Source of the DNA: Bacteroidaceae bacterium
GTDB lineage: Bacteria > Bacteroidota > Bacteroidia > Bacteroidales > Bacteroidaceae
DNA: 64,000 nt
NCBI GenBank assembly: GCA_016292045.1
Contig: JAEEZX010000019.1
Location: forward strand, 1-64,000
Direction of reading: 5' to 3'
In this document: piece after piece, positions 1,557 to 56,267 of the stretch
Layout: each line of letters begins with the position of its first letter
How positions within the stretch are numbered: position 1 is the stretch's first letter
The notes under the pieces: generated by a model
What the model was told of the DNA's origin: nothing
Database searches by the model: none
The model's input: the letters and a program-made list of their open reading frames with translations, nothing else
Translations under genes and position numbers: made by a program

Positions 1557-1561
1557 GAGAT

Positions 1562-1670
1562 GTAAGAAGTAAGATGTAAGAGTGAAGAACGAAGGCGCCC
1601 CAAAAAATCGGAATATTCGGAGTATTCGGAATAATCGGAGTATTCGAAGGGCGCCTCTTCACTCTTCACT
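1562..1670. repeat. Composite tandem-repeat hairpin (heptamers / GGCGCC / 9-mers / GGCGCC / heptamers)
   Basis: The left arm is GTAAGAA, GTAAGAT, GTAAGAG, TGAAGAA (period 7), then a GGCGCCC box. The centre is TCGGAATAT, TCGGAGTAT, TCGGAATAA, TCGGAGTAT (period 9, 1608-1643). The right arm is GGGCGCC followed by TCTTCAC twice (1656-1669). The arms AGTGAAGAACGAAGGCGCCC and GGGCGCCTCTTCACTCTTCACT are near reverse complements, so the whole element can fold as a long hairpin with the 9-mers in the loop. Confidence 0.85.
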
Positions 1671-1676
1671 AAAAAT

Positions 1677-1701
1677 GGCATCCGAAAGGGTGCCGTTTTT
1701 T
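1677..1701. terminator. Bidirectional rho-independent terminator
   Basis: The stem GGCATCC-GAAA-GGGTGCC is followed by GTTTTTT on the plus strand and flanked by AAAAA on the other side, so it can stop both the plus-strand gene pair ending at 1556 and the minus-strand gene ending at 1757. Confidence 0.8.
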
Positions 1702-1707
1702 GTTCCC

Positions 1708-1734
1708 GAGACATCCGAGACATTCGAGACATCA
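1708..1734. repeat. Period-9 tandem repeat (GAGACATCC)x3
   Basis: Three contiguous 9-mers read GAGACATCC, GAGACATTC, GAGACATCA just beyond the terminator. A decayed relative (GCGATATCC, GCGACATCG) occurs at 32481-32498. Confidence 0.8.
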
Positions 1735-1756
1735 AATTTTGTGTCCCCTACTCTGT

Positions 1757-4700
1757 CTAGAAGAGAACCTTCCTGCCCCTGTTGATGTAGATGCCCTTCT
1801 TCGTGGGCCTCGAACTCAGTCTGCGGCCGCTCAGGTCGTACCACACACCATCGGATTCTTCACTCTTCACTCTTAACTCTTCACTCTTCACTTCATCCAC
1901 TCCCGTGGAACCGGCATCGTCCCAATGCAGCATGAAATGGTCCACACTCCACCAGGCCGTGGTCTGCGCACTGATAAAGGCATTGACAGTAAGCCTGTCG
2001 CCGCTCTGGGCCGTGAACACAGGCAAGGTCACCTTCTGCCAACCGCGCTGATAAGGGCTGCCGTCCACCGTCTGGTCGCCAATGCCCGTGAGAGTCTCCT
2101 GATAAACAGTCTCCTCACCGCTGCGGGAACGGTGCACAGCCTGCAACGTGACATTCTGACCCGTGGCGCAGCGCATCAAGGCACTCAGCGTGAAGTCACC
2201 GGCCGGAAGATACTCGACAGTCTGCGACATCGACGACTCCAGAGAACCCTGACTGTAGACATCGAAATATGAGTTGCCGCTGTCGCCGTCCCAGGACTGA
2301 CCGCTGCGGGTCTCCTGGTTGTGCGTCGTCCAGCCGTAGAGGTCGGCACGCAGGCAGTCGGTGTTCTTTATCAGTGACGAAGCATCTCTGCCGCCCTGCT
2401 CCTCATCGGGACATACTGCCGCCAACTGCTCGTCGCGACGCTGCGCCGCATCGGCAAGGAACCGGTCGCCCTCGCCGCCAAGCACCTCATCCTCAGTGCC
2501 AAGACGGACAAGCTGGAAATCGTCGGCACCGGCCCAGCGGGCTGTCATCACACCCTGATTCCTGATGCCGATACGCAGCGTGCCGCCGCGCACCACAATA
2601 CGGTCGATGACGGTCTCGCGTCCGTAGTCAATCTCCGAATCGACGGTGACGGGTGCGAAATACTCCACATCCTCGGCACGGGCATAGAGACCCACGTTGC
2701 CGTTAACAGAGGCTCCGCTGACTTCGTTCGACGAATTGAAGCACACAGCCCTCAGTTCGTACACACCGGCGGGCAGGTTGTCGATATCCTGATGATAGTC
2801 GAAAGCCATTATCTCCGCCGTGGGAGACCACACCTCGAGATAGGTGTCGCCGGTGGCCTTCGTATAACCGTTGGCGGCGCTGCGCTCACACACCCATCCC
2901 GGAACGGCATCCTTGGTGGAGGTCTGTATGTGGGGATTGGTGATGTAGCCGGTACTGAGCTCGCTGCTGGTGGCCTCGCCGCCATAGAGCGTGGTGGCCG
3001 TCAGACGGAAGCTGTCCGTGTAGCGCTGTATGGCGGTGAGAGGCACGGTGTATTCCATGCTGCTGCCCTCGAAGTCGGGACGGCTGTCGAACACAGCCAG
3101 GGCAGTCCATTCCCCACCCCCGGTCCTGCGCTCCAGCGTCATCTGCTCCGTGGCATCGCCGTTGGTGTTGCCGATGAGGAATGTCAGCGTGCCGTCATCC
3201 TCGTTGATGCGATAGTCCAGCGTGGGAGTCTTCACTCCGGGAGCCCACCACGCGGGAGCCTTGGTGTTCTCGGCACGGTAGGCAAAGGTGGAGCGATGGT
3301 CGCGATAGACCTCTCCGGCAGGCGTGATGCCTCCGTCGTCGTAGAACATATTATTGCGCCAGTAGTCGAAGGAATAGATGGCATAGCGCTCTATGTAGTT
3401 GCTCTCCTCCAGACGCACCAGCAGGGCCTGCAGATAGGCACGCGACTTGTCGTAGCTGTTGATGACCGACGAGGTGGAACTGTGCCACGAGGCGCCTATC
3501 TCCATCTCGGAGAGCCATACGGGGCGGCCGGTGGTGTTCCAGATGGTCCAGCACTGGTCCGTCATATACTTGGCGTAGGTGTCGGCATCGCGGCTGCCGA
3601 TGTCCCAGTAGGCGTGCGTCACCACGAAGTCGCAGCGCGAGTGGTTGTCGTTGTTGTCCACATAGCTGCAGTAGTTCTTAAGATAATCGAAGTCGGTAGG
3701 TTGCGGCGAACCGATACGTCCTCCTCCCGCCTGGAAATCATCGTTCAGCTGATAGGCCGTCCAGGCATCGATGGTGCCCCCGCAGGAGCATATACTGCTG
3801 GTGTGCTGCTCGGAATGGTCGGGCTCGTTGAGCGACATGGATGCCGTCGCCGTCTTGTTGTTCACGTCGGAGGCGCCGGGCCAGTAGCGATGCTGGCGGC
3901 AGGGCACATACTCCATATTGGAGGTGGAACTGTAGCCGGCACTCCACGACCAATACCACGTGGCACGCAGCTGAGGACCCTTCGTGGCGCCGCCCGTGTC
4001 AGCCCAGCCTTTCTTGGAGACATACTGCCAGGGCTTGATGTTGACGGACGAGACGCGGCGGCTGAGCGACGCAGGCAGAGTGACCACCTGGTCGGCATGG
4101 TCGGCCACATAGACGCGGCTGTGTCCGCTGCCTCCTGTGCCGGAAGCCAGCGTGGCCATATAGCCGCGACGCAGAGTGAAGGATGTCATCGTGTTGCTCT
4201 GCCCGCCAAGGTCGCTGTGATTGCCAACAGCCAGAGTGAAATCGCCGGAAGTGCCCTCGCATGTCATAGGCACCGCGGGCAGGGGAATGACGGCGGCGCC
4301 GTTGAGATAGATGGCCACGCGGCAGTTGACGTTGTTACGGGCTTTCTCACCGGAGACGGTCACATACTTGAGATACTTGCTGATGACCTCGCTCGGCACG
4401 ATATTGTCGAAAATGAGCCACGTACGCTCGCTGCCGAGATTGACAGTGCTGCCAGTCATCGGATTGTCGTTAGACGTGATGTGGATGTCTATTGCATCGC
4501 TGCAGTCGAGACTCCTGCCGCTGAGACGGCAGAAATCCACTTCCCTGACACCCTGTGCATTGGTGTACTCCTGCGACTGCCAGGCTTCGCGCGCTTCCTC
4601 CCAACTGCTTCCCACGGCGGGAATGACGGAGAACTGTGTGTGACTGCCCTTGCGCTTGTCGTAGTAGACGCTGACGTAGTCCTTACTCTTCTGGGCACCG

Positions 4701-5089
4701 TCTATGCCGACGCACTTGCCGTTCTTCTTGCTGACAATATGCACGTAGGCACCCTCGTCTGCCTGCCAGCAGAAGCGGTCGGCTGTGGACTTCGACTCCA
4801 GTGTCATACTCCACGCGTTGGCCGAACTGGCAGCCAGATACTTGCCGCTGCTCTTCTGACGCAGCAATACGTAGCCGGACTGGCCCGACTCCTCAGCCAC
4901 GAAGACATAACCGTCGGAGCGGGTGCCGTAAGCCGACAGGGCGGGACCGCTGCCGGCCTCGTTGGAGCCCAGCAGCTTCTCGTAGATGTTAAGCCAGATG
5001 TAATACTCCGTACCCGGATTCAAGGCGGCAGGGGCCGTCGTGAACACCGTCATGAGCAGGCTGACACCCAGCAGGAGTCGTCTCATCAT
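1757..5089 (-). CDS. Secreted GH128-like glucan hydrolase with T9SS-type sorting tail
   Basis: The 1110-residue protein has a signal peptide (MMRRLLLGVSLLMTVFTTAPA). An N-terminal ricin/beta-trefoil-like region follows (about 25-155; GKYLAASS and GKCVGID motifs). The catalytic region has the GH128/Asl1-like signature: ATWYWSWS, EYVPCRQ, SLNEPDHSEQ (likely acid/base Glu), FVVTHAYWD and PVWLSEMEIG (likely nucleophile Glu). Beta-sandwich modules and a C-terminal WYDLSGRR...KKGIYI tail of the type IX secretion kind follow. GH128 enzymes cleave beta-1,3-glucan, so export and beta-glucan degradation are inferred. The start overlaps the HU/LysM stop by 4 bp (ATGA), indicating translational coupling to a housekeeping operon. 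A heptamer array is inserted in frame just before the tail. Confidence 0.75.
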   Translation of the reverse strand: MMRRLLLGVSLLMTVFTTAPAALNPGTEYYIWLNIYEKLLGSNEAGSGPALSAYGTRSDGYVFVAEESGQSGYVLLRQKSSGKYLAASSANAWSMTLESKSTADRFCWQADEGAYVHIVSKKNGKCVGIDGAQKSKDYVSVYYDKRKGSHTQFSVIPAVGSSWEEAREAWQSQEYTNAQGVREVDFCRLSGRSLDCSDAIDIHITSNDNPMTGSTVNLGSERTWLIFDNIVPSEVISKYLKYVTVSGEKARNNVNCRVAIYLNGAAVIPLPAVPMTCEGTSGDFTLAVGNHSDLGGQSNTMTSFTLRRGYMATLASGTGGSGHSRVYVADHADQVVTLPASLSRRVSSVNIKPWQYVSKKGWADTGGATKGPQLRATWYWSWSAGYSSTSNMEYVPCRQHRYWPGASDVNNKTATASMSLNEPDHSEQHTSSICSCGGTIDAWTAYQLNDDFQAGGGRIGSPQPTDFDYLKNYCSYVDNNDNHSRCDFVVTHAYWDIGSRDADTYAKYMTDQCWTIWNTTGRPVWLSEMEIGASWHSSTSSVINSYDKSRAYLQALLVRLEESNYIERYAIYSFDYWRNNMFYDDGGITPAGEVYRDHRSTFAYRAENTKAPAWWAPGVKTPTLDYRINEDDGTLTFLIGNTNGDATEQMTLERRTGGGEWTALAVFDSRPDFEGSSMEYTVPLTAIQRYTDSFRLTATTLYGGEATSSELSTGYITNPHIQTSTKDAVPGWVCERSAANGYTKATGDTYLEVWSPTAEIMAFDYHQDIDNLPAGVYELRAVCFNSSNEVSGASVNGNVGLYARAEDVEYFAPVTVDSEIDYGRETVIDRIVVRGGTLRIGIRNQGVMTARWAGADDFQLVRLGTEDEVLGGEGDRFLADAAQRRDEQLAAVCPDEEQGGRDASSLIKNTDCLRADLYGWTTHNQETRSGQSWDGDSGNSYFDVYSQGSLESSMSQTVEYLPAGDFTLSALMRCATGQNVTLQAVHRSRSGEETVYQETLTGIGDQTVDGSPYQRGWQKVTLPVFTAQSGDRLTVNAFISAQTTAWWSVDHFMLHWDDAGSTGVDEVKSEELRVKSEESDGVWYDLSGRRLSSRPTKKGIYINRGRKVLF
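1857..1891. repeat. In-frame period-7 array (TCTTCAC)x5 inside the GH128 gene
   Basis: Five contiguous heptamers read TCTTCAC, TCTTCAC, TCTTAAC, TCTTCAC, TCTTCAC. On the coding strand this is (GTGAAGA)n, giving VKSEELRVKSEE in the linker before the sorting tail. The same unit occurs twice in the intergenic hairpin at 1656-1669. Confidence 0.9.
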
Positions 5090-32480: not shown

Positions 32481-32611
32481 GCGATATCCGCGACATCGTT
32501 TTTGTGTGCTTCCCCTCATCCATCAGCCCTCATCCTTCTTTCTCTCCTTCTATCAGAGGAAAGGTGGCAAATAGTTTCCCAAACTTACATTTTAGTCTTT
32601 AGACCTTAGTC
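32481..32611. repeat. Cluster of decayed short tandem arrays downstream of rpsA
   Basis: Three different arrays lie in 130 bp: GCGATATCC-GCGACATCG (period 9), CCCTCAT-CCATCAG-CCCTCAT (period 7, 32513-32533) and TTAGTCT-TTAGACC-TTAGTCC (period 7, 32591-32611). The first is related to the GAGACATCC array at 1708. Confidence 0.7.
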
Positions 32612-33370: not shown

Positions 33371-33380
33371 GTCAAACTCC

Positions 33381-33406
33381 TCAGACTGTTCTCAGACTGT
33401 TCTCAG
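33381..33406. repeat. Period-11 tandem repeat (TCAGACTGTTC)
   Basis: TCAGACTGTTC, TCAGACTGTTC, TCAGAC: two and a half units directly beside the second hairpin copy and ending just before the DUF3089 stop codon. Confidence 0.8.
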
Positions 33407-33413
33407 ACATGCA

Positions 33414-49908: not shown

Positions 49909-49948
49909 AACAACTTGTCAACTCGTCAACTAACAACTTGTCAACTAA
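49909..49948. repeat. Period-8 array (TCAACTTG/TCAACTCG/TCAACTAA)
   Basis: The 47-bp gap between the aldo/keto reductase stop and the amidohydrolase start is almost entirely filled by CAACTTG-TCAACTCG-TCAACTAA-CAACTTG-TCAACTAA. A related octamer array in inverse orientation occurs at 56194. Confidence 0.85.
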
Positions 49949-49949
49949 T

Positions 49950-50897
49950 TCACGAATTTGCCCACGTCACACGCTTCTGGTCGCCTATTATCTCCTGCAC
50001 TTCGCGCACGAGCTGCCAGTCCGGTTCTTCGTTTGCCCACTGTATATTGCGACGCACATTATCGGGATTGGCCGACGAGAACAGCGTGGAAGCGATGCGC
50101 GGATTGCTCACGGAGTATTGCACAGCGAGCTGTTCGATAGGATATCCCTTCTTGCTGCAATGCTCTGCGGCACGCTGGCAGGCATCCACCAATGTTTTCG
50201 GGGCAGGATGCCACGAGGGCACACCGCGCTGCGAAAGCAGACCCATTGACAGCGGTGAGGCGTTGATGATACCGATACCGCGCTGCTCGAAGAAATCAAT
50301 ACTGTCCGACAGGGCGTCGTCGTTCAGTGTGTAATGACAGAAATTCAATATGCTCTCCACCGTGCCCTCTTCACAGTGCTCCACCACCCACTGGAGATTC
50401 TTCAGTTGCAGGTCTGTGATACCCACGTGTCCTACAACGCCCTTCTCCCTCAGTTCCACAAGTGCCGGCAGTGTTTCCTCCACCACTTTCTGCAGTCCTC
50501 CCGGCAGCGCAGCCTGAAACTCGATGTCGTGCACGTTGATGAGGTCTATATGGTCGATACCGAGCCGCTCCATACTCTCGTACACGCTGTCCGTGGCACG
50601 GCGTGCGGAGTAGTCCCACGTGTTCACACCGTCCTTGCCGTATCTGCCCACCTTCGTACTCAGATAGTACTTATCGCGCGGTATTTTACGCAGAGCCTTT
50701 CCCAGCACCGTTTCCGCCTTGTAATGGCCGTAATAGGGACTCACGTCGATGAAGTTGATTCCTCCTTCTATCGCAGCCTCCACGGCTTCAAAACTCTCCT
50801 TCTCGTTGGTCTCGCGAAAAACGCTTCCCAGCGACGATGCACCGAATCCCAGATGCGAGATATGCATCCCTGTATGTCCTAATTCCTTATAACGCAT
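49950..50897 (-). CDS. Aldo/keto reductase, candidate L-fucose dehydrogenase
   Basis: The 315-residue (beta/alpha)8 oxidoreductase has the AKR signatures GINFIDVSPYYGHYKAETVLGKAL (catalytic Asp/Tyr), YYLSTKVGRYG (Lys), DLINVHDIEF (His) and a C-terminal NAD(P)-binding segment (NPRIASTLFSSANPDNVRRNIQWANE). AKRs of this group in fucose or pyridoxal loci oxidise free L-fucose to its lactone. The gene is 9 bp downstream of the permease. Confidence 0.83.
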   Translation of the reverse strand: MRYKELGHTGMHISHLGFGASSLGSVFRETNEKESFEAVEAAIEGGINFIDVSPYYGHYKAETVLGKALRKIPRDKYYLSTKVGRYGKDGVNTWDYSARRATDSVYESMERLGIDHIDLINVHDIEFQAALPGGLQKVVEETLPALVELREKGVVGHVGITDLQLKNLQWVVEHCEEGTVESILNFCHYTLNDDALSDSIDFFEQRGIGIINASPLSMGLLSQRGVPSWHPAPKTLVDACQRAAEHCSKKGYPIEQLAVQYSVSNPRIASTLFSSANPDNVRRNIQWANEEPDWQLVREVQEIIGDQKRVTWANS

Positions 50898-52163: not shown

Positions 52164-52187
52164 TTAAGGTTAAGGTTAACGTTAAGG
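52164..52187. repeat. Period-6 array (TTAAGG)x4
   Basis: TTAAGG, TTAAGG, TTAACG, TTAAGG fills most of the gap between the AraC-type regulator and the fucP start. Confidence 0.85.
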
Positions 52188-52189
52188 TT

Positions 52190-53053
52190 CTACTTTCTCA
52201 TCCTGTCCCTGTATTCCTGCGGTGTCACTCCCGTCTGTTTGCGAAACACACGTATGAAATAACTGTGATCCGTGAATCCCAGAGAGTAGGCCACCTCCTT
52301 CACCGGCTGGTCTGTGGTGTAGAGCATCAACTGAGCTCTCTCCACTTTCTTTGTGTTGATATACTGCAAGGGAGACAGACCGAATTCCTTCTTGAACAGG
52401 CGTATCAGATACGGTTTTGTGATGCACGCCACTCCCGACAGCTTCTCCACATCGATGTTCTCACCGATATGTGCGTGGATGTAGCCCAGCACATTCTTTA
52501 TCCTCTCGTCCGTAGTCCACGAGTGCGGTACCACCTCGCGCATGAAACGGGAAAAGAGCAGCAGCAGAGCACCCCTCAGTCCCATCTTCCGCCACAGCGG
52601 CATATCACGGTAGCGCTGCACGTAGTCGGTGAATTTCGCTGCGTTGTCATACGAGTTGGGATTGCTTTCCGGCAGACATGCGTCGGGATAGTCTTCGCAC
52701 AGTCCCCGGAAGATTTGATTCTCATCCCTGCCGGCTTTCACTTCCGTGGGGAATTCGTAGAGCTCCATCATGTTCATCTCGTTCTTGAAACCCTCGTACA
52801 CGTGCAGGTAGTAGTGCGTGAACGGTCCTTCGCACTGATACGAATGCTTCGTGTAGGGCGGGATGATATACATATATCCCGGACGCAGTGTCACGGTCTC
52901 TTCCGGCAGGTGCAGCTGCGCCTCGCCTTCCGTCACGTAAAAGATACGCGTGAACGGGGAACTCACTTCCTTCCAGTTCCAGTCTCCGTTGTGATGCGCC
53001 AGACCCACGTTCAGCATCTGGAGATTAAACGACTCAATGGGAATCTGCTTCAT
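52190..53053 (-). CDS. AraC-family transcriptional regulator of the sugar operon
   Basis: The 287-residue protein has an N-terminal cupin-type sensor (EGEAQLHLPEETVTLRPGYMYIIPPYTKHSYQC) and a C-terminal double HTH (NIDVEKLSGVACITKPYLIRLFKKEFGLSPLQYINTKKVERAQLMLYTTDQPVKEVAYSLGFTDHSYFIRVFRKQTGVTPQEYRDR). It lies directly upstream of fucP in the same direction, so it is likely the local sugar-responsive activator. A pair of 13-bp direct repeats 21 bp apart sits upstream of its promoter. Confidence 0.92.
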   Translation of the reverse strand: MKQIPIESFNLQMLNVGLAHHNGDWNWKEVSSPFTRIFYVTEGEAQLHLPEETVTLRPGYMYIIPPYTKHSYQCEGPFTHYYLHVYEGFKNEMNMMELYEFPTEVKAGRDENQIFRGLCEDYPDACLPESNPNSYDNAAKFTDYVQRYRDMPLWRKMGLRGALLLLFSRFMREVVPHSWTTDERIKNVLGYIHAHIGENIDVEKLSGVACITKPYLIRLFKKEFGLSPLQYINTKKVERAQLMLYTTDQPVKEVAYSLGFTDHSYFIRVFRKQTGVTPQEYRDRMRK

Positions 53054-54311: not shown

Positions 54312-54374
54312 TAAATTATCAATTGTCAATTATCAATTATGCATTATGCATTATGAATTATGAATTATGCATTA
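54312..54374. repeat. Period-7 array of nine drifting heptamers between cydA and cydB
   Basis: TAAATTA, TCAATTG, TCAATTA, TCAATTA, TGCATTA, TGCATTA, TGAATTA, TGAATTA, TGCATTA: nine heptamers with no break fill the whole cydA-cydB gap. The changes are confined to positions 1-3 and 7 of the unit. Confidence 0.92.
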
Positions 54375-54375
54375 T

Positions 54376-56175: not shown

Positions 56176-56183
56176 CAAAAATA
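56176..56183 (-). promoter_or_regulatory. -7 element TATTTTTG of the cyd operon
   Basis: TATTTTTG on the minus strand lies 22 nt before the ATG at 56154. The DNA that should hold the -33 element lies inside the octamer array at 56194-56225 (TTG at 56208-56206, 22 nt away). Confidence 0.68.
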
Positions 56184-56193
56184 CGAAATTTAG

Positions 56194-56225
56194 TTGACAA
56201 GTATACAACTTAACAAGTTGGCAAG
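56194..56225. repeat. Period-8 array (TTGACAAG/TATACAAC/TTAACAAG/TTGGCAAG)
   Basis: Four contiguous octamers lie upstream of the cyd -7 element. They are the reverse-complement type of the CAACTTGT array at 49909. Confidence 0.85.
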
Positions 56226-56267
56226 TTGTTACTTTGGGAAAAATGACTTAATTTTATTGGAATGGCC

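Follow-up and report, generated by a model that had tools for sequence, protein, structure and literature searches.

Intergenic DNA in the 64,000-nucleotide stretch analyzed here (the window, which forms the start of contig C33) contains runs of short tandem repeats whose units differ from site to site, with the same unit reappearing at distant places. Are such arrays chance products of the sequence, remnants of local slippage, or strings that have been put there? The source is a Prevotella-like rumen bacterium with a 2.56-Mb draft genome in 74 contigs, a MAG-like assembly. From this genome (G000), 1.08 Mb was taken in stretches, some of them picked around heptamer matches, so that array densities reflect a biased sample; intergenic DNA (93 kb) was delimited by crude ORF calls. 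In what follows, the sister is the closest species (91% identity across 130 kb). Short arrays between genes turn out to be a real and unusually active form of genome change, not chance sequence: from one species to a close relative they arise, are lost, or switch to another unit. The features of the window are as follows (TRF, found by TRF; units, number of repeat units).

1558-1593 (+), heptamer array (AGATGTA/AGTAAGA/AGTGAAG) in the sense orientation, right after the stop of ORF 1242-1556; TRF and sequence
1577-1670 (no strand), compound hairpin repeat; fold, copies, and alignment
1608-1646, 9-mer array, 4.3 units; TRF
1655-1670, heptamer array, 2.3 units; TRF
1671-1702 (no strand), terminator-like stem-loop AAAAATGGCATCCGAAAGGGTGCCGTTTTTT between converging genes; fold of -15.9 kcal/mol over 1673-1712
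1706-1733, 9-mer array CCGAGACAT, 3.1 units; TRF
1857-1892 (-), heptamer array, 5.1 units, in frame inside ORF 1757-5089 (-); TRF
33380-33408, 11-mer array, 2.6 units; TRF
49911-49946, irregular octamer array, part of the 43-bp insertion 49911-49953; TRF
49911-49953 (-), insertion of a 43-bp octamer string at the stop codon of an aldo/keto reductase gene (49950-50897, -); missing in the sister
52164-52189 (-), TTAAGG hexamers following closely on the stop of an AraC-type gene (52190-53053, -); TRF
54314-54375 (-), heptamer array, 8.9 units, filling the cydA-cydB gap; TRF
56193-56230 (-), degenerate octamer array that immediately precedes a TAnnTTTG box (56176-56183) in front of cydA; missing in the sister

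Most arrays named in the original prediction are real: TRF and direct reading recover those at 1608, 1655, 1706, 1857, 33380, 49911, 52164, and 54314. The CCCTCAT string at 32513 and the TTAGTCT string at 32591 are too imperfect for TRF, whereas those at 32481 and 56194 are present but degenerate. The excess over random sequence is large and rules against chance arrays, with 105 intergenic arrays of period 5 to 13 in the 93 kb versus 1.4 to 1.8 in order-2/3 Markov sequence. These include 50 arrays of period 7, 18 each of periods 9 and 11, 11 of period 8, and 2 of period 10. A search with three copies of CTCTTCAC, allowing up to 2 mismatches, gives 30 matches in the same genome and none with the reversed control. 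Two of the listed arrays lie within open frames: the array at 1857-1892 encodes a linker, EVKSEELRVKSEE, that precedes the C-terminal segment of ORF 1757-5089 (-), and the one at 33381 lies in a frame with no family match. The idea of one layout for all arrays proved too broad, as the listed examples are not one class: they occupy different positions and include hairpin-borne 9- and 11-mers, two weak strings, and the two intra-ORF arrays. Heptamers tend to lie at stop codons, octamers and some heptamers are found before promoters, and many 9-mer and 11-mer arrays are parts of hairpin elements.

The compound site at 1562-1735 lies between converging genes and consists, in order, of the left stop codon, sense heptamers, a GGCGCCC/GGGCGCC hairpin with a 9-mer loop, complementary heptamers, a stem-loop, and a 9-mer array. 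The hairpin repeat (1577-1670) is made up of a heptamer arm, GGCGCCC (1594-1600), the loop array of the 9-mer TCGGAATAT (1608-1646), GGGCGCC (1649-1655), and a TCTTCAC heptamer arm (1655-1670). With its arms, it is found in about 7 copies in the same genome, which are 79 to 91% identical along most of the repeat. In the sister and in 39 further genomes of the genus, only fragments of it have a match; the repeat is lineage specific. A related array is found in locus L026 at the same gene end as that of ORF 1242-1556. Among paralogous genes that end in the Flg_new_2 domain, the same gene end is followed by different arrays or by this hairpin, and three paralogs keep an identical heptamer array. 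The inter-gene heptamer array is identical base for base in three paralogous gene pairs of about 91% identity (L031:521-556, L015:106-140, and L047:19880-19914), and other paralogs differ there.

Several further observations concern dispersed repeats. Arrays of 11-mers of the GTTAACGAGTG type occur in both orientations inside an approximately 140-bp dispersed repeat (L053:6220-6307, L046:19758-19829, and L037:9547-9579). Near-identical dispersed segments of 60 to 110 bp combine AACGAAAACCAA 12-mers with TTCACTC heptamers (L015:1099-1152, L019:10052-10118, L011:1650-1679, and L018:877-899) and terminate at a CGTAnnTTTGC promoter-like box. Inverted array pairs 50 to 100 bp apart, as around the window hairpin, are frequent in many genomes (e.g., contig C46 of G012, C68 of G073, and C22 of G064). 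Of the CTCTTCAC-type sites in the same genome, roughly half are less than 3.5 kb from contig ends, exceeding the expectation from contig sizes; these sites are possibly next to assembly-breaking repeats.

The best-defined single event is the 43-bp insertion at 49911-49953, which supplies a new stop codon, TGA, to the aldo/keto reductase gene. Where the sister has GCAAATTC directly followed by TTAGTAATATG, with a 4-bp junction between the genes, the window has GTGAATTAGTTGACAAGTTGTTAGTTGACGAGTTGACAAGTTG between the two. In the 13 other congeners in which both genes can be aligned, the genes mostly overlap or are no more than 8 bp apart, and longer but different spacers are seen in L231, L236, L237, and L241. 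Polarized by these outgroups, the comparison indicates that the string entered the junction after the split from the 91%-identical sister. The 43-bp insert has no target duplication and no terminal or inverted repeats of the kind that mark a MITE; the pentamer ACTAA/TTAGT is common to the insert and its flank. A search of the same genome with the query region of the octamer string gives 17 matches; the string is found in many places in some congeners and in none in others, and it recurs with the same 8-8-7-8 layout at several loci of the same genome with unrelated flanks. The sister carries a 38/38 match at another place, and the best match in the same genome, 95% over 40 bp, is no proven donor. 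The possibility of a non-autonomous element, raised in the original prediction, thus holds for parts of the material only, namely, the hairpin and this octamer string, both of which are dispersed repeats. A second resolved insertion (of two in total) is found between cydA and cydB in L119, which has a 46-bp heptamer-like string where its close relatives L116 and L125 have an ATGA overlap; its polarity is weaker than that at 49911.

Comparison of orthologous gaps between relatives, proposed as a check, revealed 7 gaps that vary in array presence, length, or unit. Most arrays differ across such gaps, and one is conserved base for base between the sister species. At 52164-52189, the sister has units of the TTTTCG type. 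Likewise, the cydA-cydB gap is occupied by AGTTTAC units in the sister and by TAATTCA/TAATGCA units in the window, so that the unit as such has been replaced. In 80 other species, the two genes overlap by ATGA (19 species), are separated by a plain gap, or have between them an array built from different units (AGTTTAC, AGTTTAG, AAATCGT, AAATTGT, AATTGAG, and AATTAAC). A quick CydA tree, with direction not inferred, requires at least 20 changes in the array state and 12 in the overlap state. Among the 16 indels of at least 10 bp that separate this genome from the sister over 118 kb, 8 consist of array units and about 3 more lie inside arrays by our own classification.

Recurrence of the same unit at distant sites is confirmed. 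When heptamer arrays whose flanks are homologous are left out, the remaining 36 yield 23 pairs with the same unit, versus 1.0 for random intergenic 7-mers (maximum of 8 in 100 draws). Unit order is not common between loci beyond what composition gives (23 pairs versus 19.8 ± 3.3 for 3-unit blocks). Across 81 genomes of the family, three successive units of the grammar ARTTNAN have from 0 to 606 matches, with congeners at both extremes (606, 424, 247, and 0 within genus g12); a reversed control was not used here because it matches many of the same arrays in another phase. Generic array detection agrees where sequence is available, with none in 14 kb of intergenic DNA of G036 and 30 per 10 kb, from a small sample, in G012. 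Exact-unit counts for AATTGAR, AATTGAY, and AGTTTAR are 36, 0, and 0 in G020; 0, 38, and 0 in G006; 0, 15, and 0 in G060; 6, 44, and 23 in G000; and 2, 14, and 21 in G073. Thus, genomes carry near-exclusive unit dialects, which for distant genomes rest on pattern counts, and congeners either show the trait or lack it. Phylum-wide, few of 198 genomes reach such match numbers.

Heptamer tandem arrays dispersed within one genome are also known from the STRR sequences of heterocystous cyanobacteria, which are alike in this respect and belong to a different phylum. The nearest kinds are the long simple sequence repeats of Mrazek et al. (2007) and the TAACTGA repeats of MacGregor (2015). The former, as presented in the available parts of the sources (PMC4679880, PMC4060949), are repeats of 5- to 11-nt units beyond chance expectation, commonest as heptamers and patchy among species. 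The arrays described here fit this definition, both in their excess and in the predominance of heptamers (50 of 105); compared with the available account, they add per-genome dialects, the on/off distribution among congeners, a polarized nonlocal insertion, and starts at stop codons. TAACTGA heptamers form direct repeats in Beggiatoaceae, cyanobacteria, and some Bacteroidetes and, like the present arrays, lie between genes beside gene starts or ends, with 7-nt indels between close strains and repeat-free gaps in relatives (PMC4679880). However, three tandem TAACTGA units were not found in 261 loci nor two in the 1.08 Mb, and we reject membership in this family; in contrast to it, many units are used per genome and arrays start at the upstream stop. 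BrickBuilt of Porphyromonas gingivalis, described in the available part of its source as a minisatellite within a MITE, with a 23-nt unit, a leader, and a tail (PMC4596501), is an array inside a dispersed intergenic repeat from the same bacterial order and in that respect is comparable to the 1577-1670 hairpin, whereas here the units are of 7 and 9 nt and most arrays have no surrounding element. Prokaryote satellites include related arrays scattered in one genome, read as satellite transposition, and (GATAGRA)n heptamers in Chloroflexus; neither Prevotella nor Bacteroidetes is named in that text, and its available part describes neither insertion polarity nor a gene-border rule (PMC6749651). 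Our literature search found no account of these arrays in Prevotella.

The arrays might be conserved regulatory sites under selection, such as RNA spacers, antitermination or Rho-loading tracts, or repeated operators. In codirectional gaps, 19 of 32 heptamer arrays begin no more than 8 bp from the stop of the upstream gene, versus 10.1 ± 1.6 expected from uniform placement. Orientation is biased toward sense within 15 bp of the stop (37:7; P = 5e-6), a bias that is partly ascertainment because ORF calls terminate at any stop that falls within an array, and the bias is reversed at 16 to 100 bp (2:16). Arrays starting 1 to 15 bp after the stop are still mostly sense (13:3, with a slightly wider grammar), as are those between cydA and cydB, where the gene end is fixed by homology (11:2, counted by eye). 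Several arrays abut a TAnnTTTG box, and these mostly have more C than G (17 of 22 sides). While both orientation biases and this strand preference speak for a regulatory role, close relatives have a different unit or no array in the same gap, and TAnnTTTG boxes occur beside arrays at 0.077 per side, hardly above the 0.058 at random intergenic positions, which led us to reject a general promoter link. We therefore consider this interpretation very unlikely.

Ordinary replication slippage on random local seeds, combined with selection for AT-rich, C-poor, unstructured intergenic sequence with stops in every frame, would make independent arrays look alike, and it is a possible, if rather improbable, explanation. 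It is consistent with the indels of 14 and 21 bp found in arrays, with the random unit order, with the prevalence of stop codons inside stop-abutting arrays (51 of 63 in the sense versus 31 of 63 in the antisense orientation), and with the dominance of heptamers among 5- to 11-nt repeats in other phyla too (Mrazek et al., 2007, as cited in the available part of PMC4679880). However, the 43- and 46-bp inserts have no local seed, and neither near-exclusive dialects nor the contrast of 0 versus 606 matches within one genus follows from slippage plus a shared selective regime. Slippage from local seeds alone is disfavored because of these multi-unit nonlocal inserts, the dialects, and the on/off distribution; the view that it is insufficient for recurring units, already expressed in the original prediction, is backed by the unit sharing as well. 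We tentatively favor, at a little below an even chance, the alternative that gene junctions receive strings copied out of the stock already present in the genome, with slippage resizing them afterward. Genomes would hold a large, fast-turning stock of short arrays, mainly heptamers plus octamers and hairpin-borne 9- and 11-mers, and a new array would be a multi-unit string that enters a gene junction in a single step. In the case of octamers, a string of about 40 nt would derive from a further copy elsewhere in that genome, and microhomology-primed template switching in the course of replication or repair is the probable route. Once in place, arrays may grow, shrink, and swap units via slippage and further switching, and they would survive wherever they disrupt no gene: at a stop or directly behind it, between the stop and the next start within operons, on the upstream side of the -7 box, and near terminators. 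The genomic donor, the switching step, and the part played by slippage are what we infer. The microhomology at the 49911 insert, the two nonlocal insertions, the unit sharing, the dialects, and the differences at orthologous gaps speak for this reading; the small number of resolved insertions (two), the best genomic match of 95% over 40 bp, the array kept base for base in the sister, and the draft state of the assembly count against it. For heptamers, copying of long blocks is unsupported because unit order is random, units but not their order being common between loci, and block copying of heptamer arrays was rejected.

Dialects and on/off distribution among congeners also speak for arrays being the product of a dedicated enzyme (a polymerase, a reverse transcriptase, or a transposase) confined to array-rich genomes. 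The occurrence of many units and several periods in one genome argues against such an enzyme, and none of the three protein families tested for the proposed co-occurrence proved to be a required maker. Copying from a template, as the original prediction suggested, is favored for the 49911 insert but not via the RVT_1 reverse transcriptase, whose distribution does not follow that of the arrays: 14 of 29 array-rich genomes (those with 20 or more grammar matches, a class assigned by hand) have no such protein. A Y1 transposase (PF01797), expected of a REP/RAYT system, has no match at E ≤ 0.001 in the 92%-complete draft G000 and was rejected as well. The only Y-family match in this genome is a divergent 518-aa polymerase (L030:9837-11393, -, contig C8) in which the IMS span is longer and the D and SIDE motifs are intact; its families and neighbors do not support an assignment as ImuB. 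Such polymerases, typed by hand, are found in 16 of 29 array-rich versus 8 of 52 array-poor genomes (P = 3e-4, uncorrected for phylogeny), which is a lead only, and since array-rich G012 and G056 have no Y-family match, nor does the richest genome, they were rejected as required makers. A dedicated enzyme is thus as doubtful as the regulatory role. The broader notion of a dedicated, patchy activity in this Bacteroidales family that writes and rewrites genome-specific heptamer or octamer strings at gene junctions, a programmed or selfish intergenic DNA synthesis, seems unlikely, if slightly less so.

The cause of heptamer-array buildup in many bacteria has been an open question since 2007. This family offers a tractable case, with congeners that have hundreds versus zero matches of one grammar and with near-exclusive dialects, and births, losses, and unit swaps can be traced at orthologous operon gaps such as cydA-cydB and the aldo/keto reductase junction. 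The gene junctions of these common gut and rumen bacteria are being rewritten, which alters the distances between operon genes and the final codons of genes such as cydA.
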